From Propionispora vibrioides (GTDB lineage: Bacteria > Bacillota > Negativicutes > Propionisporales > Propionisporaceae): a stretch of 64,000 nucleotides of DNA. Below the pieces are notes generated by a model, which saw nothing but the letters and a program-made list of their open reading frames with translations, ran no database searches and was not told where the DNA came from. Shown piece after piece: positions 18,320 to 62,263 of the stretch; position 1 is the stretch's first letter, and each line of letters begins with the position of its first letter. The position numbers and the translations under genes are program-made. The stretch spans positions 1 through 64,000 of the forward strand of contig NZ_FODY01000020.1 of assembly GCF_900110485.1 (NCBI RefSeq), in the 5' to 3' direction.

Positions 18320-18356
18320 AAATGAGAAAGTTATGAATATACAATGAAATACGTAA

Positions 18357-18520
18357 AGAGGTAGGTGCCCTACGGGGCTTAATAGGGAAGTCCGGTGCAA
18401 GGCCGGTGCGGTCCCGCCACTGTAATGAAGAGTGACTCCAAAAAGCAAGGCCACTGGGATATTCATCCTGGGAAGGATTGGGGGAGCGATGACGCAGAGC
18501 CAGGAGAACTGCCTATCTGA
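18357..18520 (+). promoter_or_regulatory. Cobalamin riboswitch 2
   Basis: Complete core: GGTGCCCTACGGGGCTTAAT, GGGAAGTCCGGTGCAAGGCC, GGTCCCGCCACTGTAAT and B12 box AGCCAGGAGAACTGCC, with P1 AGGTAG / CTATCT. First of a tandem pair; its own terminator is at 18631. Confidence 0.94.
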
Positions 18521-18630
18521 CAATCACCGATTGACCTGCGAGCGACGGGAAGGCGATTATAAGGGAAGTCTATATGCATAGGCTGTCTTTGGGTTGCCTC
18601 TTTTTAGGCATCCTGTATGGCGCTTTGAAG

Positions 18631-18698
18631 ATAGGTTTCTTTTGTAATCAATTTTTTCGGCAGCAGGCGAGAGTTGATGACAAAAGAAACCTATTTTA
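18631..18698 (+). terminator. Terminator of riboswitch 2
   Basis: Long hairpin ATAGGTTTCTTTTGTAATCAA / TTGATGACAAAAGAAACCTAT followed by TTTTATG. It lies before riboswitch 3, so readthrough must pass two controls. Confidence 0.85.
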
Positions 18699-18778
18699 TG
18701 TTGTGAAGGGGGGACTCTGGTTACGACTGCCGGATTGGAGCGGGCAGTTGTTGTGGATTTTTATAATGAAATACGCAA

Positions 18779-18930
18779 AGAGGTAGGTGCCCTGCGGGGC
18801 TTAATAGGGAAGGCCGGTGCGGTCCCGCCACTGTAATGAAGAGTGACTCCAAAAGGCAAGGCCACTGGGATATTCATCCTGGGAAGGATTGGGGAAGCGA
18901 TGACGCAAAGCCAGGAGAACTGCCTATCTG
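18779..18930 (+). promoter_or_regulatory. Cobalamin riboswitch 3, with an internal 11-base deletion
   Basis: Nearly identical to riboswitch 2, 422 bases downstream, but TCCGGTGCAAG is missing after GGGAAG, so one strand of the conserved CCGG-GCAA-CCGG hairpin is gone. The rest (GGTCCCGCCACTGTAAT, CCAGGAGAACTGCC) is intact. It may no longer bind B12 normally. Confidence 0.85.
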
Positions 18931-19026
18931 ACAATCACCGATTGACCTGCGAGCGACGGGGAGGCGATTACGACGGAAAGTCTATACCCATAGGCTGTTT
19001 TTGGGTTGTCCGGAAACGGCTGGGAA

Positions 19027-23048: not shown

Positions 23049-23086
23049 AAACAAGTAAGTTCGAAAAAGCACAATTGAATACGCAA

Positions 23087-23249
23087 AGAGGTAGGTGCCC
23101 TACGGGGCTTAATAGGGAAGTCCGGTGCAAGACCGGTGCGGTCCCGCCACTGTAATGAGGAGCGACTCCAAGGGAAAGGCCACTGGGATATTCATCCTGG
23201 GAAGGATTGGGGGAGCGATGACGCAGAGCCAGGAGAACTGCCTATCTGA
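23087..23249 (+). promoter_or_regulatory. Cobalamin riboswitch 4 (first of three in tandem)
   Basis: Full core with GGTGCCCTACGGGGCTTAAT, GTCCGGTGCAAGACCGG, GGTCCCGCCACTGTAAT and AGCCAGGAGAACTGCC. It begins a triplicated unit with periods of 426 and 427 bases. Confidence 0.94.
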
Positions 23250-23360
23250 CAATCACCGGTTGACCTGCGAGCGACGGGGAGGCGATTACGACGGAAAGTC
23301 TATAGCCATAGGCTATTTTCAGATTGTCCTTTTTATGGATACCGAAAATAGTGCTGGGAA

Positions 23361-23428
23361 GATAGGTTTCTTTTGTGATCAACTTTTACGGCAGCAGGCC
23401 GGTTGATGGCAAAAGAAACCTATTTTTT
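23361..23428 (+). terminator. Terminator of riboswitch 4
   Basis: GATAGGTTTCTTTTGTGATCAA / TTGATGGCAAAAGAAACCTAT-type arms with TTTTTT after. A smaller hairpin CTATTTTC...GAAAATAG at about 23313-23351 may be the alternative fold. Confidence 0.85.
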
Positions 23429-23512
23429 ATGGTAAGGAGAGATCGGTAAGCGAAAATCGGCACTGGGAATATGATTGAATGTTCCATAGTCCTATAAGAA
23501 CCACATATGAAA

Positions 23513-23676
23513 AGAGGTAGGTGCCCTACGGGGCTTAATAGGGAAGTCCGGTGCAAGACCGGTGCGGTCCCGCCACTGTAATGAAGAGCGACTTCAAGAG
23601 GCAAGGCCACTGGGATATTCATCCTGGGAAGGATTGGGGGAGCGATGACGCAGAGCCAGGAGAACTGCCTATCTGA
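23513..23676 (+). promoter_or_regulatory. Cobalamin riboswitch 5 (second of three)
   Basis: Same core as riboswitch 4. It differs mainly in one peripheral arm (GAAGAGCGACTTCAAGAGGCAAGG instead of GAGGAGCGACTCCAAGGGAAAGG; riboswitch 6 has the latter form). No new promoter is obvious, so it is probably in the same transcript. Confidence 0.94.
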
Positions 23677-23787
23677 CAATCACCGGTTGACCTGCGAGCG
23701 ACGGGGAGGCGATTACGACGGAAAGTCTATAGCCATAGGCTATTTTCAGATTGTCCTTTTTATGGATACCGAAAATAGTGCTGGGAA

Positions 23788-23855
23788 GATAGGTTTCTTT
23801 TGTGATCAACTTTTACGGCAGCAGGCCGGTTGATGGCAAAAGAAACCTATTTTTT
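23788..23855 (+). terminator. Terminator of riboswitch 5
   Basis: Identical in sequence to the terminator of riboswitch 4. Confidence 0.85.
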
Positions 23856-23939
23856 ATGGTAAGGAGAGATCGGTAAGCGAAAATCGGCACTGGGAATATG
23901 ATTGAATGTTCCATAGTCCTATAAGAACCACATATGAAA

Positions 23940-24102
23940 AGAGGTAGGTGCCCTACGGGGCTTAATAGGGAAGTCCGGTGCAAGACCGGTGCGGTCCCGC
24001 CACTGTAATGAGGAGCGACTCCAAGGGAAAGGCCACTGGGATATTCATCCTGGGAAGGATTGGGGGAGCGATGACGCAGAGCCAGGAGAACTGCCTATCT
24101 GA
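23940..24102 (+). promoter_or_regulatory. Cobalamin riboswitch 6 (third of three)
   Basis: Core again complete. The aptamer matches riboswitch 4, whereas the downstream platform has diverged. Confidence 0.94.
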
Positions 24103-24213
24103 CAATCACCGGTTGACCTGCGAGCGACGGGGAGGCGATTACGACGGAAAGTCTATGCCCATAGGCTAATTTCAGGCTGTCCTTTTTTAAGGATACCCGA
24201 AATAGTACGGTAA

Positions 24214-39355: not shown

Positions 39356-41029
39356 TTAATCAGTGCGTAATTGTAAATGACGTTGATGATAGGGCAGCAA
39401 GCCCTTCCGGTGGCCAACGCTGATCAGCGTGGTTGCCGGAAGCTTTTGCCGGAGACAGGCGTAGAGCCGCTCTTCCGTAGCCGGATCGAGACTGGCAGTT
39501 GCTTCATCTAAAAAGAGCCAGGCGGGCTTGTGCAGGATTGCTCTGATTAGCGACAGGCATTGCTGCTGACCAAGGGATAAGCTTTTAGGCCAGTCTTCAT
39601 ACTCATTCAGCCTGGCGTACAGAGCGGGCAATTGGCAGCAAATTAACAGTTCTTGCAGGACTTCATCGCTGACCGGCGGATGCTGGGGATAAAGCAGAAG
39701 CTCCCGTAAAGTGGTTTTAAAGAGATAAGGCGTTTGTGGCAGGAAAAATTGGGATTGCCGGCCCGGTTTTAGTACCAGGCCGCTGAAGTGAGGCCAAATA
39801 CCGGCAATGGTCCGCAGCAGCGTTGTTTTGCCGCAGCCTGGCGGACCGCTGATCAGCAGGTGTTCCTGTGGGCGGAGTGTGCAGGAGATATTTTTTTGCA
39901 GAACGTCGCCGGTAGGTGAAAATAAAGTGACATTTTTTAGTTCAAACTGATTTGCTTTTTGCGGGACGGTAGTTCCTTCGGCCTTGGCCAGCTTTTCCAC
40001 AGCCGACATCATATGGATAAAATGGGTAAGCCGGATATGGACGGCTTTCCAGAGAGCCAGTTTATTAAAGTTTTCCACCATATAGGACAATGAGGCGTGG
40101 ACATACCAATAAGCACCGGAGATTTCAAATAACTGGCCTAACTGTATTTCGTTGGAAAAGTAACGGGGCGACGATACCAGAAAGGCGAACACGATGGATA
40201 ACTGAGAGTAGGCTACCGACAGCAGGGTAAGATTTTTCGTGGCCTTGGCAATGGCCAGGTAATTTTGCGCCAGCTTTCTAAAATGCCTGGTGAGGGTTAT
40301 TTGTTCCGTTGCTTCGCCCCTGTAGAGGGCCACGCTTTCGTCATGGCCGCCCAGATGATCCAGGTGACTGCGGAAATCGGCTTCGGCGGTTTGCTGGACT
40401 ACATTGCGGGAAACCAGCGGAAGGCCGGCCCGGAAAGTAAACCAGGTTCCGGTAAGTGAGTAGAACAAGGCCAGCCAGAGCAGATAGCCGGGGAGAGCAA
40501 ACGGGAAAAAGGGTAGTGTCAGCGTACCGGATAATTGCCAAAGGACAGTGGAAAATACGGCCAGTGTAGTCAAGTGGCGCAGCACGTCCACCACAATATC
40601 AACCGTGGTATTGATGAAAATACGAATATCTTCACTGATTCGCTGGCCCGGATTGTCAATGGACGTTTGCAATAGGTTCAGATGATAGTAAGTCCGGTTA
40701 GTCAGCCAGAGACGGGTAAATACGTCAGTCAGCCACTGCCGCCAACGGAGCTGCAGCAGCAGCTTGCCGTAAGACTGGTAGCCTGAGGTCAGGATATAGA
40801 GGGTCGATATGAGCAGAAACTGCAGCAGGGTCCGGTGAAAGCCGGGGCGGTCATAAGCCTGCAACTGGTTGTAAAAGCCTGCCTGCCAGTTGTTTAAGGC
40901 CAGATTGAGCGATACGATGACGACAGTACAGCCGATAACCAGCAAAGCGAGAAACCAGGCCACGTGGCTTTTGCCGGAAACCCAGTAAGTAAGAGAAAGT
41001 CGCAGCAGATTGTTGGGCGGAGCTTTCAA
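39356..41029 (-). CDS. SbmA/BacA-like ABC transporter (permease-ATPase fusion)
   Basis: 557 residues from a TTG start at 41029, chosen because AAGGAGG lies 7 bases upstream; an ATG at 41074 would add 15 residues without a site. N-terminal membrane domain (about 320 residues, ABC_membrane_2 type: SLNLALNNWQAGFYNQLQ, LTYWVSGKSHVAWF), then an ATPase domain with Walker A ISGPPGCGKTTLLR, signature SLGQQQCLSLIRA and Walker B AWLFLDEATASLD. The family includes ABCD4 and mycobacterial BacA, both linked to cobalamin transport. The gene is divergent from a B12-riboswitch region, so a role in corrinoid movement is possible but unproven. Confidence 0.85.
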   Translation of the reverse strand: MKAPPNNLLRLSLTYWVSGKSHVAWFLALLVIGCTVVIVSLNLALNNWQAGFYNQLQAYDRPGFHRTLLQFLLISTLYILTSGYQSYGKLLLQLRWRQWLTDVFTRLWLTNRTYYHLNLLQTSIDNPGQRISEDIRIFINTTVDIVVDVLRHLTTLAVFSTVLWQLSGTLTLPFFPFALPGYLLWLALFYSLTGTWFTFRAGLPLVSRNVVQQTAEADFRSHLDHLGGHDESVALYRGEATEQITLTRHFRKLAQNYLAIAKATKNLTLLSVAYSQLSIVFAFLVSSPRYFSNEIQLGQLFEISGAYWYVHASLSYMVENFNKLALWKAVHIRLTHFIHMMSAVEKLAKAEGTTVPQKANQFELKNVTLFSPTGDVLQKNISCTLRPQEHLLISGPPGCGKTTLLRTIAGIWPHFSGLVLKPGRQSQFFLPQTPYLFKTTLRELLLYPQHPPVSDEVLQELLICCQLPALYARLNEYEDWPKSLSLGQQQCLSLIRAILHKPAWLFLDEATASLDPATEERLYACLRQKLPATTLISVGHRKGLLPYHQRHLQLRTD

Positions 41030-41167
41030 GGAACAGCCTCCTTTAACGGAATGGAAATGGCTGATGCAGTTCATTATATGAGGTGCCGGAACATGGTATG
41101 AGTGCGGGATTTTGAATGGGGGACAATGTGATACGCTTAGAATATATTGTATACAACCGAATATATG

Positions 41168-41196: not shown

Positions 41197-41239
41197 TTAA
41201 TTAAAGGAAAAACAAAGATTTTTATAAAATTTCATATGA

Positions 41240-41392
41240 AATCAGGTATCCGGCAGTAGGCCGGATTTAAAAGGGAAGTCCGGTGTGATTCCGGCGCTGT
41301 CTCGCAACTGTGAAGGAGAGCCATGTTTCTGTAAGCCTCTTACCAAGGAGGAAGATGGCCATGACCCTAAGTCAGGGTACTGCCTGGTTTTA
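41240..41392 (+). promoter_or_regulatory. Cobalamin riboswitch 7 (variant core)
   Basis: Shows AAAAGGGAAGTCCGGTGTGA, GCTGTCTCGCAACTGTGAA and the box AAGTCAGGGTACTGCCTGG. The GCAACUGU core and shorter arms differ from the other ten here, so it is a separate subtype. Terminator at 41564. No gene lies between it and riboswitch 8. Confidence 0.82.
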
Positions 41393-41563
41393 GCATCCGT
41401 ACAGCCTGCGATGGACAGGTCTGGGATTAAGAACACTTGCAGGCATGGAGATAGCTCTCTGAGTTATAACTTGACGGTAGGCTTATTAAGATGAGCCTTT
41501 TCGCCTTAATAGCATGTAGGTTCTTAACCCGGCATTGACAGCAGGCGGCTTTGAAAAAAGTAA

Positions 41564-41610
41564 AGCGTCAATTGTTCCGCCGGACGGAACGATTGACGCT
41601 CTTTTGTTTA
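41564..41610 (+). terminator. Terminator of riboswitch 7
   Basis: AGCGTCAATTGTTCCGCC / GGACGGAACGATTGACGCT then CTTTTGTTT. Confidence 0.85.
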
Positions 41611-41688
41611 TCGGCAAGTCGTATGACGAAGCATATCGATAAGCAGGACTGCATAGGATGAGAAAGTGACGAAAACTATATAGCGTTG

Positions 41689-41878
41689 GGATAGGTGCCC
41701 TACGGGGCTTAATAGGGAAGCCGGTTGAAGGCCGGCGCGGACCCGCCACTGTAATGGGGAGCAAACTTGCAGTATAGTGTCGATCTTAAACTTGATCGTA
41801 CTGTACTCTGCCACTGGAGCGAACGCTTTGGGAAGGCGCAGGGGAGCGAGGAACCAGAGCCAGGAGAACTGCCTTATC
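41689..41878 (+). promoter_or_regulatory. Cobalamin riboswitch 8
   Basis: GGTGCCCTACGGGGCTTAAT, GGGAAGCCGGTTGAAGGCCGG, GGACCCGCCACTGTAATGG and GAGCCAGGAGAACTGCC. One arm is enlarged by a long hairpin (CTTGCAGTATAGT...CTGTACTCTGCC). Repeated 484 bases further as riboswitch 9. Confidence 0.93.
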
Positions 41879-42005
41879 CGACAATCACCGTTGGTGTTGT
41901 GACAAGTTCAAAATAGGAACTTGTTGCCACACAGAACCCGCGATGGACCGGGGAGGGGATTACGCTTAAAACCAGGGACAGTGTCTGCCTGGTTGGCGTA
42001 AGCAC

Positions 42006-42030
42006 ACTCCCGTAAAGGGAGTTTTTTTAT
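42006..42030 (+). terminator. Terminator of riboswitch 8
   Basis: ACTCCC-GTAAA-GGGAGT with a TTTTTTT tail, after a strong hairpin (TTACGC...GCGTAA, AACCAGG...CCTGGTT) likely to be part of the switch. Confidence 0.85.
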
Positions 42031-42172
42031 TTGGTACACCTGGACCGGTGGATCTGGTAAAGGGTTAGCTGTGTACAGGCTTTGCGATGGCTTTACATAA
42101 CAGGTTGGAGCCTATAGTGAGGCAGTCGCGCAGTACCGCATAGGAAGAAAGTAACACAACTATATAGCGTTG

Positions 42173-42364
42173 GGATAGGTGCCCTACGGGGCTTAATAGG
42201 GAAGCCGGTTGAAGGCCGGCGCGGACCCGCCACTGTAATGGGGAGTGAACTTGCAGTATAGTGCCGATCTTAAACCTGATCGTACTGTACTCTGCCACTG
42301 GAGCGAACGCTTTGGGAAGGTGCAGGGGAGCGAGGAACCAGAGCCAGGAGAACTGCCTTATCCG
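42173..42364 (+). promoter_or_regulatory. Cobalamin riboswitch 9
   Basis: Near-identical to riboswitch 8, including the enlarged arm; the differences are mostly single bases. Immediately precedes the 42.6-52.5 kb operon. Confidence 0.93.
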
Positions 42365-42490
42365 ACAATCACCGTTAGTGTGTGACCAGTTCAAAATTAG
42401 GAACTTGTTGCCACACAGAACCCGCGATGGATCGGGGGAGGGGATTACGCTTAAAACCAGGGACCGTGTCCGCCTGGTTGGCGTAAGCAC

Positions 42491-42612: not shown

Positions 42613-43056
42613 ATGAAAAAAATATCCCGAATGATTTCTCTGGTGGCAGCGGCTTTGTTCCTGTCCGGACTGGTTGCGCCGGCCCCGGCTCTGGCCGCTA
42701 AGGCCGCCCCAGAACCAAACGTCGGCTATGTCGACCGGCAGCAGGTTTTTAACAGTTATCCTGGCATTCAGGACCTCCTGCGGCAGATTCAAAGCATGCG
42801 GGAGGCGGCGCAAAAAGACTATGACGCCCGGAGCAAAGATCTGTCGCCCGGGGAGCGAAAAGCACTGAATGATACCATCGCCCGCGAGGAAGCGCAGCGG
42901 GAGGACGCCCTGATGAAACCGGTAGGCGATAAAATCGAGGCGTCGATCAAGGCTGTAGCCGGAGAAAAGGGCTTGCCCGCCATCGTCGACGCAGGCATTG
43001 TGGTCTATGGCGGCATCGACATCACCGCCGACGTGATTGCCAAAATGAAACAGTAA
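42613..43056 (+). CDS. OmpH/Skp-like periplasmic protein
   Basis: 147 residues from ATG 42613 (AAGGAGAG site); an upstream ATG at 42595 has none. Signal peptide KKISRMISLVAAALFLSGLV...ALA. The mature part starts NVGYVDRQQVFNSYPGIQDL, the OmpH family hallmark, followed by a helical, charged region and a C-terminal VYGGIDITADVIAKMKQ. Skp-type proteins chaperone outer-membrane proteins in the periplasm. As first gene of the operon, it may help fold the double-barrel protein encoded at 44.7 kb (inference). Confidence 0.88.
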   Translation: MKKISRMISLVAAALFLSGLVAPAPALAAKAAPEPNVGYVDRQQVFNSYPGIQDLLRQIQSMREAAQKDYDARSKDLSPGERKALNDTIAREEAQREDALMKPVGDKIEASIKAVAGEKGLPAIVDAGIVVYGGIDITADVIAKMKQ

Positions 43057-43251: not shown

Positions 43252-44670
43252 ATGTCTAGTAAAGTAGCGGTAACTGCCTATAACTATCCGGCGCCTGATT
43301 ACGTTGGGGTGGGGGATGTCAGCACGGCCCAGTATGCCGGCGGTACCAGCGGTACCGTGATTGCCACGCAGACAGGTGTGGTCACCCAGTATACCGATGG
43401 TGGCAGTACGGTCTCGCTGCCTGGTGACACCAAAGTATTCCACTTCAAAAACAGCTCCGGTGTGGATCAGGCTTTGGTTACAGCAACACAGTGGACTAGC
43501 GGGACGCCGGTATGCAAATACCTGATTTTTGATGCTACCGTTCCAGCCACGATTCCTACCGGTTACAATTGGGGAACACCGGTGTATGGTCCTACCACCT
43601 GGGCCATTGGCAGCACTGCCTTAGCCAACCTGTACAAAATCCAGACAACGACCATCAGCGGTACCTTCTATATCTACGGCATTGACTATGATGCCGCCAG
43701 CGCCTTCCGTCTCGCGGCCAGCGGCTCGACCTATACGCTGGATACCACCAATTACTATACCTTTGACCGGCCTTCTGCGGCCAGTGAAGGACACGGCGTT
43801 GATTTGCAAATTGTCGGCAGTAATGTGTTTACTCTCTGGATCAGCGGGACCAACCTGTCATCGGGAGCGCCCAGCGCATCTTACCTTGACAGTACGGTGG
43901 TTAAGACCAATCTGACGTTCGGCGGCGCCACCTATGCCGGACCTCATGGCAGCACGACGCCGAGCGGGACTAAGCCGGCTAAAAACGCATTCAGCATCCA
44001 GCCCTATAGCGGCGTACTGCTGCTGACTGCCATCGGCGGACCGCAGCAGGCCGGCACCTGGAATCCTGACTCCCGCATTCAACAGATTGATCAGAGCACG
44101 CTGGCTGTTAGCGATTTGCTTTTGGCAGCCGCCAGTTCCAGTGATCCGGCGGAAGACCAGTTCGATTTCCGGGCGCTGTCGTTTAATGCCAGTGGTACGG
44201 AAGTCTTTATTCTGACGGGCATCTACAATTCCAGCTTTTCTACTATGAATTGGCGTTTGTACTGGCTCACTATGAACTCACTGCTCAATGCCGGTGGTGC
44301 TTTGCTTAGTGATTTAGTGGCAGCCAGTGCTCCAGATCCAACGGCAACGGTTATAACGTCGGGAAGCTCAGCCGGCTATCTTTGGGCGCTGCTGTATTCG
44401 GAAAGTACGCAGAAAACCTGGTTCAGCCGCGGCAATGATCTGGCAATTTACAATACCGGCGGTATGGTCGGCAGTGCGGCGGCGATCGGTAGCCTGACCA
44501 CCCTGGGCAGCGGCTCCTATCTTAACTCCATTACCATCTACGGCGGCGAAGAGGCGCCAACAGCCAAGACCTTAAAAGGCTATGTTGCACCGGCCTTCGC
44601 CTCCAATACGGCGGCAGCCCTTATCGAACGCAAGCGCTTGCTGGAGCAAATTGCGGCAGCCAAAGACTAA
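43252..44670 (+). CDS. Unknown beta-rich Ser/Thr/Gly-rich protein (472 aa)
   Basis: Start ATG 43252 with GGGAG upstream; an in-frame GTG at 43243 is less likely. No signal peptide and no membrane segment; few cysteines; many Ser, Thr, Gly, Tyr. Segments such as YLDSTVVKTNLTFGGATYAG, TEVFILTGIYNSSFSTMNWR and TIYGGEEAPTAKTLKGYVAP suggest beta-propeller-like repeats, but I recognise no family. Ends with a basic helix (AALIERKRLLEQIAAAKD). A terminator follows, so downstream genes are partly insulated. Co-regulation by B12 riboswitches suggests a corrinoid-related role. Confidence 0.8.
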   Translation: MSSKVAVTAYNYPAPDYVGVGDVSTAQYAGGTSGTVIATQTGVVTQYTDGGSTVSLPGDTKVFHFKNSSGVDQALVTATQWTSGTPVCKYLIFDATVPATIPTGYNWGTPVYGPTTWAIGSTALANLYKIQTTTISGTFYIYGIDYDAASAFRLAASGSTYTLDTTNYYTFDRPSAASEGHGVDLQIVGSNVFTLWISGTNLSSGAPSASYLDSTVVKTNLTFGGATYAGPHGSTTPSGTKPAKNAFSIQPYSGVLLLTAIGGPQQAGTWNPDSRIQQIDQSTLAVSDLLLAAASSSDPAEDQFDFRALSFNASGTEVFILTGIYNSSFSTMNWRLYWLTMNSLLNAGGALLSDLVAASAPDPTATVITSGSSAGYLWALLYSESTQKTWFSRGNDLAIYNTGGMVGSAAAIGSLTTLGSGSYLNSITIYGGEEAPTAKTLKGYVAPAFASNTAAALIERKRLLEQIAAAKD

Positions 44671-44739: not shown

Positions 44740-47700
44740 TTGCGAAAGTGGAAAAAACGGATACAACGGAAAAAACGGGCAAGACAGGCTCTGCTGGCGA
44801 TCGTCCTGGCGGCCGCTTTGGGCTGTGCTGCACCGGTAAAGGCGGCAACGGTCGTGATAGCTGGTGAGACGGTAAACGATTCAGAGTTAGGTACGGCAAG
44901 TGGACCGGCCACTTACACCGTCGGCGCGGGGCTGACAAAAACAACCTGGGCTAATGCAGACCAGACCAATTCTTCGGCTTTGCGCTATAAGGCAGTGGTT
45001 ATTGAAAATGGTGGGGTTTGGCGACCCATGGATCTTAGCTTTACGACTGGAGATTTGACAATAGGTGCCGGCGCGGTCCTGGACATGACCTATAAGTACG
45101 AAAATTATCCTTACGATGGGACATCGACCGACGGCATAGAGTTTGTCCGGAATTTTAATAACAATAATAATACTGCGACCAAAACAGTCTTTTATGATGG
45201 GGCCATCCTGCGGGGAACGATATGGAGTAATTCGAGAAAAACGACATTTACCTTTAAGAACCCGCAGTTTGGGACCGGGGAATCATCGGCCACCGTCAAA
45301 GTCCAGTGGCGGTTTGATAAAAGCTTTTTCAGCGGCACCAACAGCGGCGTGGCGGCAGGCAGTTGGGAAGCGGCCAAGGCGATCAATTTAAACGGGACAG
45401 TGGGTAGCGTTATCACTCTAAGAAATTTAGACGCCGGTGTGGAACAAAACCTGAGCTTTGTGGCGGAGGTCGACAATAGTTACGTTGACGATGCGCTGCA
45501 CAAATATTTATTTGTGCCGACCCTGACCACCAATTATGTTTCCGGTGCCACTAAATACTATGATTTAAGCTGGACCGCCACCCGGACCGACTTCTTGTCC
45601 CAGGGCGTATTCAGCGCCGCCAATGCCCAGCTTTCCCTGCGTAATTTGTGGCGGATCGAGGACGGTCTGTTCTGGAAGAGGGGCGAAGAGCTGCGCGCCG
45701 CCGATCGGCTGGGACAGGACGACGAAGGGGCTGACGGAGCCTGGGCGCAAATCTGGCGCGGTAAGTATGATTTTGACGGTGTCGTTGCTTCGGGCTTCGG
45801 CCAGAGCTATGACGGCATTCAACTTGGCTATGACAAGCAGCGCGAGGGCAAGCTGTTCGGCGGCAAGCTCCATAGCGGCCTGTTCCTCAGCTTGCTCAAT
45901 TCCGATGCCGATTTCCATCAGCACACGGTTCTCAGCGATAATGGCGTGGATAAAGCCTATTACACACACGCCAATGGCGATCTGGACAGTAAAGGAATTG
46001 GCTTGTATACCACCTGGGCCGGTGATAAAGGCCACTACCTGGATTTTACCGTTCGCGGCTCCCGACTCAGCAACAAGTATCAATACTACGATGCCGACGA
46101 TAATCTATATGACAACGACTACAGCACCTGGACCTACGGAGCCGGTTTTCGCTACGGGTATCAACAAGAGCTGCACAAGGGCTGGTATTGGGAACCCCAG
46201 GCTGGCCTGTCTTATGGCACGATGAAGGATTATAGTTACACCGCCGGCAATAACCTGCGTTATAACCAGGAACAGATGGATATGCTGATCGGCCGCTTTG
46301 GCGTCACTGCCGGCCGGAATTTCACGCATGGTGATAAACGCGGCACGGTCTATGCCAAGGCTGCGGTCAACCATGACTTTAAGGACGGCGGCAGCGGTAG
46401 CGCGGACGCTCTGGTCTGGGATGCCTCGCTCAATGGTTTTTCCGGCGGCTGGAAGGTGGGAGCCACCCTGCCTATGAATACCCTAGCCGGTAAGGATACT
46501 TGGTACGAATTCGCCCTGGGGGCCAATCTAATGATTGGGAAAGATAAAAACGCCTTTGTCGAACTGACCAAAACCACCGGTGGCAAGGTTAATACCGACT
46601 GGCAGGTGAATGCTGGGCTATCCTGGCGCTTTAACGGGCCTGTTGCCGGCAAAGGCGAGCTTTCTCAGCCTCCTGCCACCGGTAATAGCCTGAACGAAGG
46701 AGAAACCTTGCCAACCGGGCAGTCAAGCGGGGCAAGTTCATTAGCGGCGCAGTCAAGTCAAGCCGAACGCTCTGCTAAGACCGGCCCAATGGCACTAAAC
46801 CAGGAGGATTTATCTAGCAGGGCTGCGACCAATGGAACGGCTGCAGCCGGAGATGGGACAGAACAAAGAGCGGCACAGGCTGTTGCCGTTGCGCAAAGCG
46901 GACAGCTTGCGGCGCAATTGCCTGATCAGGTACCGGCGGACAGCCGAACTATGCAGACAAAACCGGCCAGCGGCGACGGGCAGCCGGTCGCTGTCCCTAC
47001 TTCTGCCGGCGTCAGAACCGTCGCTGCCGCAACGGAAACGGCGGTTGCCGACAGCGGCGAGACAGCAACTTTTACCTTGGAACCCTTGGTGGTCGAAGCC
47101 AAGCGCCCCGATTGGGAGAAAAAGCTCTCACCCGGCACCGTTTCGGTTATTCATGTGCCGGAGTATAAGGGCGAAATGAAAAATCTGCCCGACCTGTTGC
47201 AGACCGTACCCGGTGTTTACGTGCAGCGGTTGCAGGGCACCGGCCATTATAGCGTGGCCCGCGTCCGCGGTTCGACCGGCGGCCAGGTTAATATCTACGT
47301 CGATGGCGTACTCGTTAATTCCAATGCCGATGCCGCGGTCGATTTGTCAACTATTCCGGTGGAAAATGTTGAACGGATCGAAGTCTATCGCGGCTATGTA
47401 CCGGCCCGCTTTGCCGGCGCGCCCATCGGCGGGGCGATCAACATTGTCACCAAGAAGCCCCAGGACACCAAGGGCAGCATCACGACTGGCCTGCGCTCCT
47501 TTGACGGTTATACCGGCAATCTGGAAGTGACCGCGCCGGTGGGCGGCGGCAGTATGCTGTTCGCCCTTAACCGCGATCAGGCGGCGGGTGATTTCCACTA
47601 TGACCATGTGTATCAGACTTCCCAGAACGTTCCTGCCATTACCGAGAGCAAATGGCGCAAAAACAATGACTATCATAACACGGACGCCCTGCTGAAATGG

Positions 47701-49140
47701 CAGGATGACAACTGGTTCGCCAAGCTGACCTATCAGAATAACAGCACGGCCTTCCCGCAGTCCGCCTATGGGCAATATGCCGACGACATTGATCTTTCCG
47801 GCAAACGCCAGGAGATAGAAAAAACAGAGCTTTCGCTGGGGCGGCGACAGACCGCCGGCAATCTCGAATGGGGCTGGCGGTTGGACGGTTCCTATCAGTA
47901 CAAGCAGGCAACCGATATGGACGTTAAGTCTTTAGTGAGTGGTAATGTAAAGTTCACCGCCGACAATGAATTCCGTAATCGGCGCTTAGGCGGTGCGGTT
48001 GACGGTAGCTGGAAAATGGGCAAAGCCCATTTGGTTGAGTTTCTGTTGGACACCTCCCGTGAAACCATGAAGGTGGACACCAATAATTACAATAAGTGGC
48101 CGAATTGGGACAGCAGTGTCGGCAGTAATCAGGCCAAGGCGCTATATTCTAAATTCTTTAAGAACGACTACCAAAGCGATAACTATTACTTCCAGGTACA
48201 GGATACTATGACGCTCAACAAGAGCGGCAACCTGTTCTTTACTCCGGTACTGCGGGCGCAGAAGCTGGCTATGGATGTCGATTTGGGCGATCCCGATCTG
48301 GATCGATGGAATTACTCCTACGGTCTGGGCTTGAAAAAAGTGCAGAACGATCATTGGACCTTCCGCAGCACTTATGGCACCTACCATAAATATCCCAACT
48401 GGTATGAACTGTTCGGCGATGGTGTTAACGTCAAGTCCCGCTGGGAAATGTATTCTACGACCAAGGTATCCGATTATTTGACCAACTCGTTTGTGGAACA
48501 CGGTACCAGTTGGGACGTCAGCGCCAACTGGCAAGGCCAGGCGGCCGGAGCAGATGCTGATGTGACATTGACTTACTTCAACCGCCGTTCCAAAAACTTA
48601 TTAAGTTATACGCTAGATCCCTACGGCTTTGGTTACTACACCAATCTGGCAGCCGGCAACATTCAGGGGCTGGAACTGGAAAGCAAGCTGCTGTGGAAAC
48701 GCTGGGACCTTCTGTTGGCAGCTACTTGGAACGACTCAATGGTAACTAAAGGCGGCAAAGACGGTCTGGTAATCCCCTCCGAGACTGCAGCCGGCAACCC
48801 CTTCCCCTGGATACCCGAATGGGAAGGCAATATTCGTCTGGGCTATCGTTTCCCCGGCGACAAGCTTAGCGTTTTTGGCGAGTATCATTACCTGGGTGAA
48901 ACCGGTGTGTATTTCGGCAGCAAAACAGCGCTGTATGAACCACTGGGCTTGATCAATATCGGCCTAAAATATGATATAAACAAAGAACTCAAACTGACTA
49001 CCGGCATCAATGACCTGTTTGACAAGGGACCTGATCAATTATGGTACCGTAGTGGGTATGGTACGTTGGATGCCAGTGGCAGCGTGGCCTATCCGCAGCA
49101 AGGCCGGACCTATTATATGACCATGCAGTACTTTTTTTAG
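44740..49140 (+). CDS. Autotransporter-barrel / TonB-dependent receptor fusion (1466 aa)
   Basis: TTG start with AAGGAGAG 5 bases upstream, then a signal peptide (ALLAIVLAAALGCAAPVKA). Layout: passenger-like beta-rich region about 36-318; autotransporter barrel about 320-632 (WAQIWRGKYDF, GIQLGYDKQ, YWEPQAGLSYG, ending NAGLSWRFNG); an Ala/Gln/Ser-rich linker about 633-775; then a TonB box (TLEPLVVEAKRP, about 781), a plug (LPDLLQTVPGVYVQR, VNIYVDGVLVN, VERIEVYRGYVPARFAGAPIGGAINIVTKKP) and a second barrel ending YYMTMQYFF. Both halves are complete in one frame, giving two predicted outer-membrane barrels in one chain. B12-riboswitch control points to corrinoid uptake. Confidence 0.9.
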   Translation: MRKWKKRIQRKKRARQALLAIVLAAALGCAAPVKAATVVIAGETVNDSELGTASGPATYTVGAGLTKTTWANADQTNSSALRYKAVVIENGGVWRPMDLSFTTGDLTIGAGAVLDMTYKYENYPYDGTSTDGIEFVRNFNNNNNTATKTVFYDGAILRGTIWSNSRKTTFTFKNPQFGTGESSATVKVQWRFDKSFFSGTNSGVAAGSWEAAKAINLNGTVGSVITLRNLDAGVEQNLSFVAEVDNSYVDDALHKYLFVPTLTTNYVSGATKYYDLSWTATRTDFLSQGVFSAANAQLSLRNLWRIEDGLFWKRGEELRAADRLGQDDEGADGAWAQIWRGKYDFDGVVASGFGQSYDGIQLGYDKQREGKLFGGKLHSGLFLSLLNSDADFHQHTVLSDNGVDKAYYTHANGDLDSKGIGLYTTWAGDKGHYLDFTVRGSRLSNKYQYYDADDNLYDNDYSTWTYGAGFRYGYQQELHKGWYWEPQAGLSYGTMKDYSYTAGNNLRYNQEQMDMLIGRFGVTAGRNFTHGDKRGTVYAKAAVNHDFKDGGSGSADALVWDASLNGFSGGWKVGATLPMNTLAGKDTWYEFALGANLMIGKDKNAFVELTKTTGGKVNTDWQVNAGLSWRFNGPVAGKGELSQPPATGNSLNEGETLPTGQSSGASSLAAQSSQAERSAKTGPMALNQEDLSSRAATNGTAAAGDGTEQRAAQAVAVAQSGQLAAQLPDQVPADSRTMQTKPASGDGQPVAVPTSAGVRTVAAATETAVADSGETATFTLEPLVVEAKRPDWEKKLSPGTVSVIHVPEYKGEMKNLPDLLQTVPGVYVQRLQGTGHYSVARVRGSTGGQVNIYVDGVLVNSNADAAVDLSTIPVENVERIEVYRGYVPARFAGAPIGGAINIVTKKPQDTKGSITTGLRSFDGYTGNLEVTAPVGGGSMLFALNRDQAAGDFHYDHVYQTSQNVPAITESKWRKNNDYHNTDALLKWQDDNWFAKLTYQNNSTAFPQSAYGQYADDIDLSGKRQEIEKTELSLGRRQTAGNLEWGWRLDGSYQYKQATDMDVKSLVSGNVKFTADNEFRNRRLGGAVDGSWKMGKAHLVEFLLDTSRETMKVDTNNYNKWPNWDSSVGSNQAKALYSKFFKNDYQSDNYYFQVQDTMTLNKSGNLFFTPVLRAQKLAMDVDLGDPDLDRWNYSYGLGLKKVQNDHWTFRSTYGTYHKYPNWYELFGDGVNVKSRWEMYSTTKVSDYLTNSFVEHGTSWDVSANWQGQAAGADADVTLTYFNRRSKNLLSYTLDPYGFGYYTNLAAGNIQGLELESKLLWKRWDLLLAATWNDSMVTKGGKDGLVIPSETAAGNPFPWIPEWEGNIRLGYRFPGDKLSVFGEYHYLGETGVYFGSKTALYEPLGLINIGLKYDINKELKLTTGINDLFDKGPDQLWYRSGYGTLDASGSVAYPQQGRTYYMTMQYFF

Positions 49141-49234: not shown

Positions 49235-49255
49235 CAATGGTGAGGAGGTATGAAG

Positions 49256-50152
49256 ATGAATGCCAGAATTGTTCTGCCTGACAGCCGGGTGGTGGGTACG
49301 GGCTGGCTGCCGCCCCTGCCTGATCTGCGTGATTACAATGAGGACCATCCCAATCTGCAGCAAACGTTGAAAAAGCTGGGAATGGACCGGGATACTCCTT
49401 TGCCGGACCGGGTAGATCTTAGGCAGTGGTGCTCACCTGTCCAGGACCAGGGGGCGCTGGGTGCCTGCACCGCTCATGCGGCGGCAGGCATGGTCGAGTA
49501 TTTTGAGAATCGTTCCTTTTCCCGGAATATGACCGCTTCCCGTCTGTTTATCTATAAGAACGCCCGAAATCTACAGGGAGTGGCCGGCGACAGCGGTTCC
49601 TATATCCGAGATACCATGGGAGCTCTGGCCTTGTGCGGCGTACCGCCGGAAAAATACTGGCCCTACACCGACAAAGCGCCTGACTTTGATAAAGAACCGA
49701 CCTCTTTTGTCTATGCGGTGGCCGACAACTATGAAGCGCTGCAGTACTTTTGCCATGATGCCGCCGGGGTTAATCCGGCTCCGGCCGATGTTCTTGGCAG
49801 CGTAAAAAAATACCTGGCGGCCGGAATTCCCAGCATGTTTGGTTTCTACGGTTTTGCTTCCTTTACGGCGTCCGATGTACCCGGCGGCATCCCGGCTCCC
49901 GGTCCGAATGAACAGGCTCAATGGGGGCATGCCGTGGCGGCTTTCGGCTATGATGATACGCTGGCAATGAGAAACACCCAATATAATAAGGAAACTACCG
50001 GAGCCTTGCTGATCCGTAATTCCTGGGGCAGTGCCTGGGGCGATGCCGGCTATGGCTGGCTGCCCTATGAATATGTCCTGAACAAGCTGGCGACAGACTT
50101 TTGGTCGCTCTTAAACATGGAATGGATTGCCGCCGATCAATTTGGCCTGTAA
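49256..50152 (+). CDS. Papain-like (C1A) cysteine protease, no signal peptide
   Basis: 298 residues from ATG 49256, 8 bases after GAGGAGG; ATG 49250 is too close. Catalytic Cys71 in VQDQGALGACTAHAA, His in WGHAVAAFGYDD and Asn in LIRNSWGSAWGDAGYGWLPY, with the oxyanion Gln in QDQG; all expected residues are present. The 50 residues before the domain (LPDSRVVGTGWLPPLPDLRDYNEDHP) resemble a short pro-segment. No export signal. In this B12-controlled operon it could process a partner, such as the fusion protein or the beta-rich protein, or digest corrinoid-binding proteins. Confidence 0.88.
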   Translation: MNARIVLPDSRVVGTGWLPPLPDLRDYNEDHPNLQQTLKKLGMDRDTPLPDRVDLRQWCSPVQDQGALGACTAHAAAGMVEYFENRSFSRNMTASRLFIYKNARNLQGVAGDSGSYIRDTMGALALCGVPPEKYWPYTDKAPDFDKEPTSFVYAVADNYEALQYFCHDAAGVNPAPADVLGSVKKYLAAGIPSMFGFYGFASFTASDVPGGIPAPGPNEQAQWGHAVAAFGYDDTLAMRNTQYNKETTGALLIRNSWGSAWGDAGYGWLPYEYVLNKLATDFWSLLNMEWIAADQFGL

Positions 50153-50198: not shown

Positions 50199-51323
50199 AT
50201 GAGCCTGATTGACTGGTTTAGCAATTTATTTGTTAAAGAGTCGAAGCATTATGTATTTGCGCCGGTAACGTCGGACGTGGAACGGATCGAATTGAAAGAG
50301 GGGCAGCATTATCTCCGGCTGCGCCTGGCGGAAATGTTTTTAAAGGATGACCGCAAATTATTCCGCAGCTATGTGCCGGTGGTTTCTTCCGTTGTCGAGC
50401 TGCAATTCGGCAGCAATGCCGCGCAGCAGTTACCCAGTGTAGCCGGACCGCTTTCGCTTAATCTGAATGCAACTTCCTTAGGCAAGGGGGTAGAACTGAA
50501 TTATGCCTTGACCAACCTGGTACCTTACCGTGGCGGCACTGTATCCATCAGCGCGGCCCTGCTGGCTTATGTGAATAAAGACTATTTTCAGCCGTTTATC
50601 ACACTGGCCAACAGTATTTCCAGCCTGCTGACCAGCGGCCAGTTGTCAACCACCCTTAAAGTAGTCGACAGCGCGGTCAATAGTCTGCAGGACCTCCTGG
50701 ACGGTGGTGACAAGGACATCCGTCTGGTGTATCATAATGAATATGCCGGTACGGACAGCCTGGGCGGTGTATCGCTGACAAACGGCTATTTCGTTGTAAT
50801 AAATGCCGATGCCGGGCAATTTGCCACGGAAAAGCTGCTGGTTAAAGCTTCACGGCTTTGCTATGGCGAGGATGCAGCAGCGGCTAAACCGCTTACCGGT
50901 TACGACTATATGCTGTTTAGTGTGGAAGCGGCGCTGTACCGGGACGATTTCCGTTATTTTGACGAATACAACAGCTTGCTCTATACGGCCATTGAAAAAG
51001 GCATGACCGACAGAAGCGAAGGGGACGCCGTCATCCGGGCGGCGATGCTGGCTGTGTTCAAATCGGACGATCTGACTTATGTCGATAAAACACGGGTCGC
51101 GGCGGCCTTGAAACAGGAATATGAAGAGCGGCTTTCGCTGCAGGAAAAACCGGCTGGCGACAAGGAAGAATGGCTGCATGACAGGGCGCTGGCCATCGAT
51201 CCGGCAGCGGTGGCTGAAAAAATTACGCCGCTCCTGAAACCCTATCCGTTGGATGATACGGTGGTAGCCGATCAAATTCTGAGGATGATTTTCAATAATG
51301 TTTTTGCGTTGCCCGAATTGTAA
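50199..51323 (+). CDS. Unknown protein (374 aa)
   Basis: No family recognised. No signal peptide or membrane segment. N-terminal half beta-rich (HYVFAPVTSDVERIELKEG, VVELQFGSNAAQQLPSV, GTVSISAALLAYV), middle with ISSLLTSGQLSTTLKVVDSAVNSLQDLL, C-terminal half helical and acidic (YFDEYNSLLYTAIEKGM, ALKQEYEERLSLQEK). GAAGGAGAAAGGGGGAG gives a strong ribosome site. Lies between the C1 protease and cbiZ, 46 bases after the former, so surely the same operon. It could be the protease's partner or substrate. Confidence 0.8.
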   Translation: MSLIDWFSNLFVKESKHYVFAPVTSDVERIELKEGQHYLRLRLAEMFLKDDRKLFRSYVPVVSSVVELQFGSNAAQQLPSVAGPLSLNLNATSLGKGVELNYALTNLVPYRGGTVSISAALLAYVNKDYFQPFITLANSISSLLTSGQLSTTLKVVDSAVNSLQDLLDGGDKDIRLVYHNEYAGTDSLGGVSLTNGYFVVINADAGQFATEKLLVKASRLCYGEDAAAAKPLTGYDYMLFSVEAALYRDDFRYFDEYNSLLYTAIEKGMTDRSEGDAVIRAAMLAVFKSDDLTYVDKTRVAAALKQEYEERLSLQEKPAGDKEEWLHDRALAIDPAAVAEKITPLLKPYPLDDTVVADQILRMIFNNVFALPEL

Positions 51324-51389
51324 GGCTTGCAGGTCAGGTCGTATGTTTTTTAGTGCCCCTAAGGCGGGTTGTCAGATACGGAGGAAGTT

Positions 51390-52487
51390 ATGAAGATATA
51401 TGAGCTAGCGAATGGCGATTCGGTTTACCGGTCCGAAAAAAGCATCATCATCCGGTTTAAAGAGTCCCGTAAAGTTCTCAGTACCTCCATCTATAACGGA
51501 GGGTATCAGGAACAGTTGACGGCCGTGTTTAATTACGACTGCGCCGTACCTAACGGCAGCTGTACCTGGCGGGCGGCCAATTATGACGAATACATGCGTC
51601 AGGCCGCGGCCGGGTTGGATCTGGCGCCGGATACGGTTTCCGGTATGGCTACGGCAGCGGCGATGGACAATGTGGCCATTCATACGGCCTGTTACCAGAG
51701 CTTGCAGGTTACGGCGCTGGTCACCGGCGGAATTGAGGAGAACGGGGGAAGGGTGGGCGACCCGGCCACGTATTTTGAACCGGCGGAACGAAATACCTTG
51801 TATAAGCCGGGTACGATCAATATCTTCTTAGTGATTGATGCGGATATGCCGCCGGCCTCACTGGTACGGGCGCTGGTGACCTGCACGGAGGCCAAAACCG
51901 CCGCTTTGCAGGAGCTGATGGCCGGCAGCAATTACTCCACCGGTCTGGCAACCGGCTCAGGCACCGATCAGACTATGATCATTGCCAATCCCCACTCGCC
52001 CCTGTATTTGGAGAGTGCGGGAAAGCATGCCAAGCTGGGTGAACTGATCGGCTGTGTGGTTAAACAGGCCGTAAAGGAAGCGTTGCAGCGGCAGACCGGA
52101 CTGTCGCCCACGCTGCAGTATAGTTCGCTGCGGCGGCTCAAGCGGTTTGGTGTGCGGGAGGAAACCCTGTGGGATTTTTATCGGCAAGAAAGCGGTGATT
52201 CCGATCAAGTGCGGTTTTTACAACGGTTGCGATGCCTGGATGCCAATTCCCGGCTGGTAACCTACACTTCACTCTATGTCCATTTGCTGGACCAATGGCT
52301 TTGGGGGCTGTTGAACCCGGAAGAAGTCCGTCGGACCGGACAGGAGCTAATCGAACAGGTAAGTTCCCGTTTTGGCATAGGTGCACCGCAAATTGGCGGG
52401 GGGAAATTGGAGGATTATTTGACGGCCTGGGGCAGGCTGCTGGCGATGCTGGCAAGTAAGACAATGACCGTGAAAAATAGTTTATAA
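51390..52487 (+). CDS. cbiZ: Adenosylcobinamide amidohydrolase family protein
   Basis: 365 residues from ATG 51390 (GGAGGA site); the TTG at 51369 is weaker. The first 230 residues carry the CbiZ signature: LVTGGIEENGGRVGDPATYF, GTINIFLVIDADMPPASLVRA, TEAKTAALQELMAGSNYSTG and LATGSGTDQTMII. CbiZ cleaves the aminopropanol side chain of cobinamide to cobyric acid for salvage and remodelling. About 130 extra C-terminal residues (from LKRFGVREETLWDFYR) are of unknown role. Last gene of the operon, and the clearest link of the whole operon to corrinoids. Confidence 0.92.
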   Translation: MKIYELANGDSVYRSEKSIIIRFKESRKVLSTSIYNGGYQEQLTAVFNYDCAVPNGSCTWRAANYDEYMRQAAAGLDLAPDTVSGMATAAAMDNVAIHTACYQSLQVTALVTGGIEENGGRVGDPATYFEPAERNTLYKPGTINIFLVIDADMPPASLVRALVTCTEAKTAALQELMAGSNYSTGLATGSGTDQTMIIANPHSPLYLESAGKHAKLGELIGCVVKQAVKEALQRQTGLSPTLQYSSLRRLKRFGVREETLWDFYRQESGDSDQVRFLQRLRCLDANSRLVTYTSLYVHLLDQWLWGLLNPEEVRRTGQELIEQVSSRFGIGAPQIGGGKLEDYLTAWGRLLAMLASKTMTVKNSL

Positions 52488-61003: not shown

Positions 61004-62263
61004 ATGAAAGAAAATCAGAGCGTTCCCAGGCAGTTGCCGGAAAAGCTGGCCGGTGCCGTCTCTTTTTTTACCGGGTTTACCGACACGGCTGTGCTGGTCA
61101 GTGTAGGTCAGGTAGCTAAAGGTATTTGTTTTATTTACTCAGCACCGGGATGGCACAAAGGGGAACAAGATATTCAAATGGGGCGAAGGAAAGAATTTCT
61201 CGCGGTACTGCCGGAAATAAAAGACAGCAGTCAATACGCCGTGCTTTTAACTGATAAACCGGACGAAGCGTTAGCGGACTATCTTAGCGGAGCAGGCATA
61301 AACTGCCCAGGGCTCACTTTGCACCAGAACTGGCAGGATGGCGATTTTGCCGAAGGGTATTGTACGGCGGCAGCGGCTTATTTTTCTGCCGTTGAGCTGC
61401 GGTCGCGCAGTATGGTCATTCCCTGTTCGCTAAATTTGCTGGGAGTGTCCGACGGGTACTATAACGGGAAAAATGATGTAATCGAGTTAACCCGTATGCT
61501 GGAGCTGGCCGGCTATCAAGTGTTGGCCTGTCCCGGTGCCGGCAGTACGCGGCAGGAAGTTGCCGCTATGACGCAGGCCGAAATGAATTTGGTGGTACAT
61601 CCCGAATTGGGCTTGGCCTTAGCCAAACAATTGCAAACAGAGTATGGCATTCCTTATTTATCGCTGCCGCTCTTGCCCTACGGCGTCGAAGGCTCGCTGG
61701 AATGGCTCAGTGCTATTGGCCAGGTTATGTGGATGGGTGAGCGAAGTCATCAGGCAGTCCGGGAGGAAGCCAATGCGGTTTGGCGGACCATGTGCCAACG
61801 GGTGAAGCGCTGGGAAAAGAATTGGGGCAGCCTGTATTTTCCGAACGGTCTGATCAGCGCCCCCGGCCTGGTCGGCGGAGCGGTAGCCAGCGCCTTGCGT
61901 ACCGAATGGTGTACGGTTGGTTCGTTAATGGTGCTGCAGCAAACAGGCAGGGCTAATGTCTGGAAAACCGCTGAGGAACCTTCGCTGGCTTTTTCCGAAG
62001 CCTGGCTGGGTGGTCACCTGGATAGACTGGAAAATGGTTTGTTGCTGGCCAGTGGCTATGAAGGCGCTTTGGCGCAGCAGCGCGGCGTCAGCCCGGCCTG
62101 CTGCCAAACGATTGCCCGGCCGGTACTTGAGGAAGAAGCACTCCGGCAGCCTTTTATGGGACTAAGGGGAGCCGCTTATTGGGTAAAGAATCTTTGGCAG
62201 CAATATATGGACAACTGCGGCGGCCGTTCTTCGACCAGTAAGAAAAAACAATATGTTATGTAG
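61004..62263 (+). CDS. Nitrogenase component 1-like oxidoreductase
   Basis: 419 residues, related to NifD/NifE/BchN-type proteins. Characteristic pieces: FIYSAPGWHKGEQDIQMG near the start, IPCSLNLLGVSDGYYNGKNDVIELTRMLELAGYQV and QTEYGIPYLSLPLLPYGVEG in the middle. It lacks an obvious NifH-like or second component-1 partner in the window. The gene lies between btuD and exbB, suggesting a role in tetrapyrrole or corrinoid handling rather than nitrogen fixation. Few conserved cysteines, so a full metal cluster is doubtful. Weak ribosome site. Confidence 0.75.
   Translation: MKENQSVPRQLPEKLAGAVSFFTGFTDTAVLVSVGQVAKGICFIYSAPGWHKGEQDIQMGRRKEFLAVLPEIKDSSQYAVLLTDKPDEALADYLSGAGINCPGLTLHQNWQDGDFAEGYCTAAAAYFSAVELRSRSMVIPCSLNLLGVSDGYYNGKNDVIELTRMLELAGYQVLACPGAGSTRQEVAAMTQAEMNLVVHPELGLALAKQLQTEYGIPYLSLPLLPYGVEGSLEWLSAIGQVMWMGERSHQAVREEANAVWRTMCQRVKRWEKNWGSLYFPNGLISAPGLVGGAVASALRTEWCTVGSLMVLQQTGRANVWKTAEEPSLAFSEAWLGGHLDRLENGLLLASGYEGALAQQRGVSPACCQTIARPVLEEEALRQPFMGLRGAAYWVKNLWQQYMDNCGGRSSTSKKKQYVM

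Follow-up and report, generated by a model that had tools for sequence, protein, structure and literature searches.

We report a gene of Propionispora vibrioides that encodes two different outer-membrane barrels in one polypeptide, an autotransporter (AT) followed by a TonB-dependent receptor (TBDT). It lies within 64,000 nt of contig NZ_FODY01000020.1 (assembly GCF_900110485.1), the whole stretch of DNA analyzed here and referred to below as the window, in a run of genes that is controlled by cobalamin riboswitches and includes a predicted β-propeller with a BtuG-like fold. From these surroundings, we consider it probable (roughly 60%) that the fusion is the outer-membrane receptor of a corrinoid uptake system similar to that of BtuB and BtuG, covalently tied to a second barrel that carries a surface capture or docking domain.

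Two barrels in one open frame

The fusion begins with a TTG codon preceded by a ribosome site of the AAGGAG type. Its parts are listed with residue numbers of the 1466-aa protein.

44740..49140, + strand: AT-TBDT fusion gene, 1466 aa, uninterrupted frame with TTG start
44740..44847, + strand: signal peptide, residues 1-36, ending PVKAA (translation)
44848..45600, + strand: passenger, approximately residues 37-287, a strand-rich stem with a conserved WRPMD motif (AlphaFold2 strands, alignments)
45601..46632, + strand: AT translocator (helices and barrel), residues 288-631, ending NAGLSWRF (Pfam, NCBIfam, EspP superposition)
46633..47076, + strand: low-complexity linker, residues 632-779, rich in Ala, Ser, Gly, Gln and Thr, predicted to be periplasmic (composition, lengths in relatives)
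47077..47109, + strand: TonB box region LEPLVVEAKRP, residues 780-790 (conserved in members, near the N-terminus of unfused receptors)
47122..47436, + strand: TBDT plug, residues 795-899 (Pfam PF07715, 2.2e-18)
47437..49140, + strand: TBDT barrel, residues 900-1466, ending QYFF then stop (PF00593; BtuB and Cir family matches)

The Pfam Autotransporter domain (PF03797) covers residues 334-577 (8.6e-32). The NCBIfam model autotrans_barl (TIGR01414) matches residues 324-631 and runs to the last of its 432 positions, so the AT barrel is complete. AlphaFold2 prediction for residues 36-650 (27 sequences) gave a mean pLDDT of 82.5; in the model a passenger rich in strands is followed by helices (residues 288-323) and a barrel extending to residue 631. 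The best structural match to this model is EspP (8bo2_P), with Z = 34.0 and an rmsd of 2.1 over 298 residues. The AT half therefore has the complete β-domain with pore helix of a type Va autotransporter, and shares with EspP, BrkA and Hbp the arrangement of signal peptide, passenger, pore helix and barrel. In type Va proteins the barrel ends the chain, whereas here a further 835 residues follow the translocator, made up of the linker and an entire TBDT.

In the second half the Pfam TonB_dep_Rec_b-barrel domain (PF00593) matches residues 982-1426 (2.9e-23) to profile position 436 of 436, and the plug profile is likewise matched to its end. Together with the TonB box and the C-terminal Phe, these are the features of E. 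coli BtuB and other TBDTs. Unlike BtuB-type receptors, which begin right after the signal peptide, this one is preceded by an autotransporter. When a profile of 15 relatives was compared with the PDB it found the whole EspP and BrkA β-domains and, with its second half, receptors of the Cir, BtuB and FepA type.

The original prediction, a note on this DNA, had read the same succession of parts in one uninterrupted 1466-codon frame and had proposed structure prediction as a check. Pfam and NCBIfam confirm that reading, as does AlphaFold2 for the AT half, and the presence of two different outer-membrane barrels in one chain is supported by the sequence, the profiles and the relatives. It had also placed the internal TonB box in the periplasm, and this fits the topology. 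An AT barrel ends, and a TBDT begins, on the periplasmic side, so the double-barrel arrangement works. The cobalamin riboswitches and the BtuG-like propeller had gone unnoticed in that prediction.

The linker is kept among relatives in its presence and not in its sequence, with lengths of 84-145 aa and a mean of 109 (over 31 gene rows, which include duplicates of a single genome). A low-complexity, poorly conserved segment of this kind could be used by a protease, and cleavage in the periplasm would turn the fusion into a polyprotein, leaving the cell with a normal autotransporter and a normal TBDT in a 1:1 ratio; in other genomes two adjacent genes do encode an AT-displayed propeller and a TBDT separately. 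Against this, the aligned linkers show no conserved motif for cleavage, and the nearby C1 protease, which had been suggested as the enzyme that might cut the linker, has no signal peptide, so that suggestion did not hold up. We therefore consider a polyprotein unlikely. The sequence of the helix region of the AT half lacks an Asn-Asn pair, and presumably self-cleavage of the kind found in SPATE proteins is not to be expected either. Both barrels would fold in one membrane with the chain intact.

Relatives and origin of the fusion

The search for the same architecture that had been proposed was made in 380 genomes of the class Negativicutes, and it found 26 copies of the fusion as an open frame in at least 20 of them. 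Full-length relatives, each in one open frame, have 63% identity in Pelosinus propionicus, 59% in another genus and 47% in the genus of the window, and frames of 1418-1853 aa occur in many other genomes of the class. All three Pfam domains are present in the 15 members of the first alignment. One genome of the window's genus (G001) contains neither the fusion nor the propeller.

It had been feared that a missed stop or frameshift near 46.7-47.1 kb might have merged two genes. The layout recurs as a single open frame in relatives from other assemblies, which excludes a missed stop, and with 26 open fusions across many assemblies the idea of an assembly or sequencing error joining two genes is refuted and its probability negligible. 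Frames can nonetheless break. In Pelosinus propionicus an adjacent second copy (L025, 1815-6199), downstream of the intact one, is split within the plug into two overlapping frames.

The architecture extends beyond the class. Two further AT-TBDT genes were found in distant delta-type metagenome-assembled genomes (MAGs), at loci L203 and L204, where the AT parts match TIGR01414 with 20.7 and 33.3 bits (cut-off 16), and L204 also matches PF03797 (2e-11). The delta-type locus L205 has the layout as judged by eye only.

A tree of 57 TBDT rows places 26 of its 27 AT-fused members together in a supported clade (97/90). This clade also includes the second Pelosinus copy, which is split, and one row truncated at the end of a contig. 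The exception among the fused rows, L037, is the sister (100/100) of a large group made up of receptors that are unfused and have an inserted loop. We considered whether this large insert might be a copy of the passenger. This was rejected, as there is no visible likeness in the alignment and a passenger profile matched only genes of the fused type.

The unfused receptors carry the same TonB-box motif shortly after their signal peptide, which places the AT unit of the fusion between signal peptide and TonB box. One of them, L042 (7739-10612), starts with the extended signal peptide of type V secretion, ESPR (2.5e-16), and a second, L043 (7631-10501), has a nearly identical, ESPR-like N-terminus. 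From these two sequences, unfused forms may have lost an AT unit, with the ESPR-like start as a possible scar.

A BtuG-like partner under cobalamin riboswitches

Immediately upstream of the fusion gene there is a reading frame for which no Pfam family was found.

43252..44670, + strand: BtuG-like β-propeller, 472 aa, no signal peptide, C-terminal helical tail (AlphaFold2, PDB profile and structure searches)

The AlphaFold2 model (48 sequences, pLDDT 83.8) is a β-propeller followed by a C-terminal helical tail. In a structure search the top eight rows (Z 26.2-25.6) all belong to BtuG or to 3dsm, its apo homologue, with BtuG1 (8blw_B) at 26.2. The sequence profile, compared with the whole PDB at E<0.1, matched only 8ptd, 8ptf and 8blw_B (6.7e-6 to 3.1e-5), which are BtuG1 and BtuG2 according to the entry titles and PMC10404256. 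For the probable kinship with BtuG, we regard the sequence profile as more telling than the structural Z.

The propeller is present in 46 of the 380 genomes, and every one of the 46 also encodes a TBDT of this family; the propeller is absent from two genomes in which the TBDT matches are only partial. It adjoins most of the fused genes, and lies elsewhere in the genome in Pelosinus propionicus. The propeller gene is split into two frames at L155 (10045-11473) and L156 (10990-12388), from Sporomusa acidovorans and genome G308.

In the window three tandem riboswitches are followed on the same strand by the chaperone, propeller, fusion, C1 protease, protein without assigned family and CbiZ. The elements around propeller and fusion are these.

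41227..41401, + strand: cobalamin riboswitch 1 of 3 in tandem (Rfam RF00174, 74.8 bits)
41676..41890, + strand: cobalamin riboswitch 2 of 3 (Rfam RF00174, 101.5 bits)
42160..42374, + strand: cobalamin riboswitch 3 of 3 (Rfam RF00174, 97.1 bits)
42613..43056, + strand: Skp/OmpH-like periplasmic chaperone with signal peptide, recurrent neighbor (Pfam OmpH 3e-16; neighbor comparison)
49250..50152, + strand: papain-like C1 protease without signal peptide, recurrent neighbor (Pfam 1.8e-11)
50199..51323, + strand: protein with no Pfam or NCBIfam match and no signal peptide, recurrent partner of the C1 protease (neighbor comparison)
51369..52487, + strand: CbiZ, adenosylcobinamide amidohydrolase, corrinoid remodeling (Pfam CbiZ 4.3e-58)

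At least one cobalamin riboswitch lies upstream of each of the 26 AT-TBDT loci scanned in the class, including that of the window (the second AT-TBDT copy in L035 is omitted from this count). They are also found at the Sphingomonas, delta and Synergistaceae loci L053, L049, L048 and L051. If the substrate were not a corrinoid but, for example, a siderophore or heme, the riboswitch would act as indirect regulation, and the TBDT half does match profiles of siderophore receptor families, weakly. Yet the best among its weak matches to curated TBDT families is TonB-B12 (TIGR01779, 98.8 bits), the partner is BtuG-like, CbiZ is in the operon, and riboswitches occur at every class locus scanned as well as at the four outside it. 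A non-corrinoid substrate is thus very improbable, and the receptor would be expected to take up corrinoids.

The same control bears on the passenger, the least conserved folded part of the fusion and one with no known ligand. It might be an unrelated surface adhesin or stalk, brought under B12 control merely by the fusion and taking no part in uptake. This is quite unlikely given the riboswitches at all 26 loci and the propeller held by the fusion genomes; moreover the WRPMD motif is kept, and in other organisms the system has a second barrel of another kind (see below).

The window contains 11 cobalamin aptamers in all, including two triple and one double tandem array (23076-24112, 18346-18941 and 41227-42374), and tandem arrays recur in relatives. 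Farther downstream the window encodes an ordinary TBDT, preceded by a separate riboswitch, together with a BtuF-type binding protein, an ABC importer, ExbB and ExbD, with a nitrogenase-component-1-type protein (61004-62263) between the importer genes and ExbB. The C1 protease and its partner recur at B12-riboswitch loci, and in L029 (3212-5655) they stand behind a riboswitch of their own. Divergent from the riboswitch array is an SbmA/BacA-type ABC transporter (39356-41074, - strand; PF05992, 1.9e-30), with homologues near the fusion loci L027, L029 and L036. One mycobacterial member of the SbmA/BacA family moves B12.

Display of the propeller and a proposed mechanism

Like the window, the BtuB-BtuG loci of Bacteroides encode a TBDT and a propeller of the BtuG fold, with B12 riboswitches (PMC10404256). 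There BtuG, a lipid-anchored lipoprotein, binds cobalamin and caps BtuB (PMC10404256). In the window the propeller is encoded together with a TBDT and riboswitch control is present; unlike Bacteroides BtuG, the propeller is not a surface lipoprotein, as neither a signal peptide nor a lipobox was found from any in-frame start, and the receptor carries an AT unit of its own. Since the propeller is no lipoprotein and the receptor falls short of the BtuB equivalog cut-off, we regard the system as a variant of BtuB-BtuG and not as a member.

At nearly all AT-fused loci the propeller is likewise without a signal peptide from any in-frame start. These leaderless propellers start roughly where a mature N-terminus would lie, and the other forms in this system are exported. 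Either they are exported by some route other than Sec, or they act inside the cell. The HasA/HasR heme system, in which a ligand-binding protein without a Sec signal serves a TBDT, would provide an analogy, although no type I exporter was identified among the annotated neighbors. We considered the C-terminal tail as a type I export signal; a similar tail is also present in forms that have a signal peptide.

The propeller is displayed in other ways elsewhere, and this variation is the strongest clue to the role of the AT unit. In about a dozen genomes it forms the N-terminal passenger of a classical autotransporter of giant size, encoded immediately next to an unfused TBDT, occupying residues ~39-449, with the AT barrel in the last ~270 residues where the gene is complete. 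This arrangement links AT display, propeller and receptor. Giant autotransporters of this kind, of 1696-3921 aa and beside B12-type TBDTs, are found at L175, L177, L179, L180, L182, L183, L185, L186 and L187. In Synergistaceae the propeller has a signal peptide and an anchor-like C-terminus, for which the Synerg-CTERM match in L048 (20.5 bits) is below the cut-off of 22.5.

There is also a second two-barrel design, in which a TBDT is followed by a C-terminal OMP_b-brl barrel, in Sphingomonas sp. ERG5 (L053) and in delta-type MAGs (L049, L206, L207 and L208). The matches in L053 and L049 were obtained on isolated segments, and some of the five are below the curated cut-off.

L053, 7773-11360: TBDT with OMP_b-brl, 1.2e-5
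L049, 5598-8753: TBDT with OMP_b-brl, 6.5e-8
L206, 3352-6501: TBDT with OMP_b-brl, 5.3e-5
L207, 943-4191: TBDT with OMP_b-brl, 7.8e-8
L208, 3606-6869: TBDT with OMP_b-brl, 2.3e-4

Searching PDB sequences with the second barrels of L053 and L049 gave nothing useful, and at 1e-80 no further relatives of this design were found among 149 genomes of the Sphingomonas family. A leaderless propeller stands beside the receptor in L053, L049 and L206. Among loci where an intact propeller gene adjoins the receptor, counted by hand, the propeller lacks a leader in 24 of 25 with a two-barrel receptor compared with 8 of 28 with a one-barrel receptor (Fisher p = 4.6e-7, uncorrected for kinship).

We propose the following mechanism. 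The fusion would be a BtuB-like TBDT with a whole AT unit inserted between its signal peptide and TonB box. The AT barrel would display the short passenger on the cell surface, with its C-terminus returning to the periplasm, and the flexible linker would lead to the TonB box, plug and receptor barrel, being long enough for the TonB box to reach TonB. The two barrels of one chain would thereby be held side by side. In view of the alternative modes of propeller display, we infer that the passenger or the mouth of the AT barrel could serve as a docking or capture platform, keeping the corrinoid, the BtuG-like propeller or both at the receptor entrance and so taking over the role that the lipid anchor plays for BtuG in Bacteroides. 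TonB would then drive uptake through the TBDT.

Several observations weigh against a corrinoid receptor with a tethered platform. The leaderless propeller cannot cross the inner membrane by Sec, which is a weak point, and an AT unit is not required for leaderless propellers, since some unfused receptors accompany them too. A propeller not known to bind B12 (3hfq) has Z = 25.3, tied within 1 of BtuG. The score of the fusion against TIGR01779 is far below the equivalog cut-off of 599.7 bits. The assignment of a plug and full barrel to the TBDT half rests on profile matches, the AlphaFold2 model covering the AT half; the passenger has no Pfam name, and the matches in the structure search with residues 36-650 were all taken by the barrel. 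Lastly, Rfam found no cobalamin riboswitch in the DNA examined at the delta-type loci L204-L208, two-barrel loci among them.

A broader reading is tentative, and we think it rather doubtful as a whole. The fusions might belong to a new class of outer-membrane protein with two whole barrels of different families per chain, which holds, or even lets out, a leaderless B12-capturing propeller beside the import receptor. Such a class would have evolved more than once, as AT-TBDT in Negativicutes and delta-type MAGs and as TBDT-OMP_b-brl in Sphingomonas and delta-type MAGs.

Every module of the fusion is known, and the combination of AT and TBDT in one chain is apparently undescribed. In the open-access literature, subscription papers being outside the scope, we found neither an AT-TBDT fusion nor a two-barrel B12 receptor, nor any paper on BtuG in Negativicutes, and the words "fusion" and "fused" are absent from a paper on the outer-membrane proteome of Veillonella parvula. 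To our knowledge, outer-membrane proteins generally have one barrel per chain, most with an assembly signal at or near the C-terminus. A two-barrel family in which one assembly signal is internal offers the BAM field a natural test of tandem-barrel folding. It also points to a way in which a diderm member of the Firmicutes might keep a B12-capture module attached with no surface lipoprotein, and it provides a testable uptake gene for B12-scavenging Negativicutes, including an uncultured Phascolarctobacterium.

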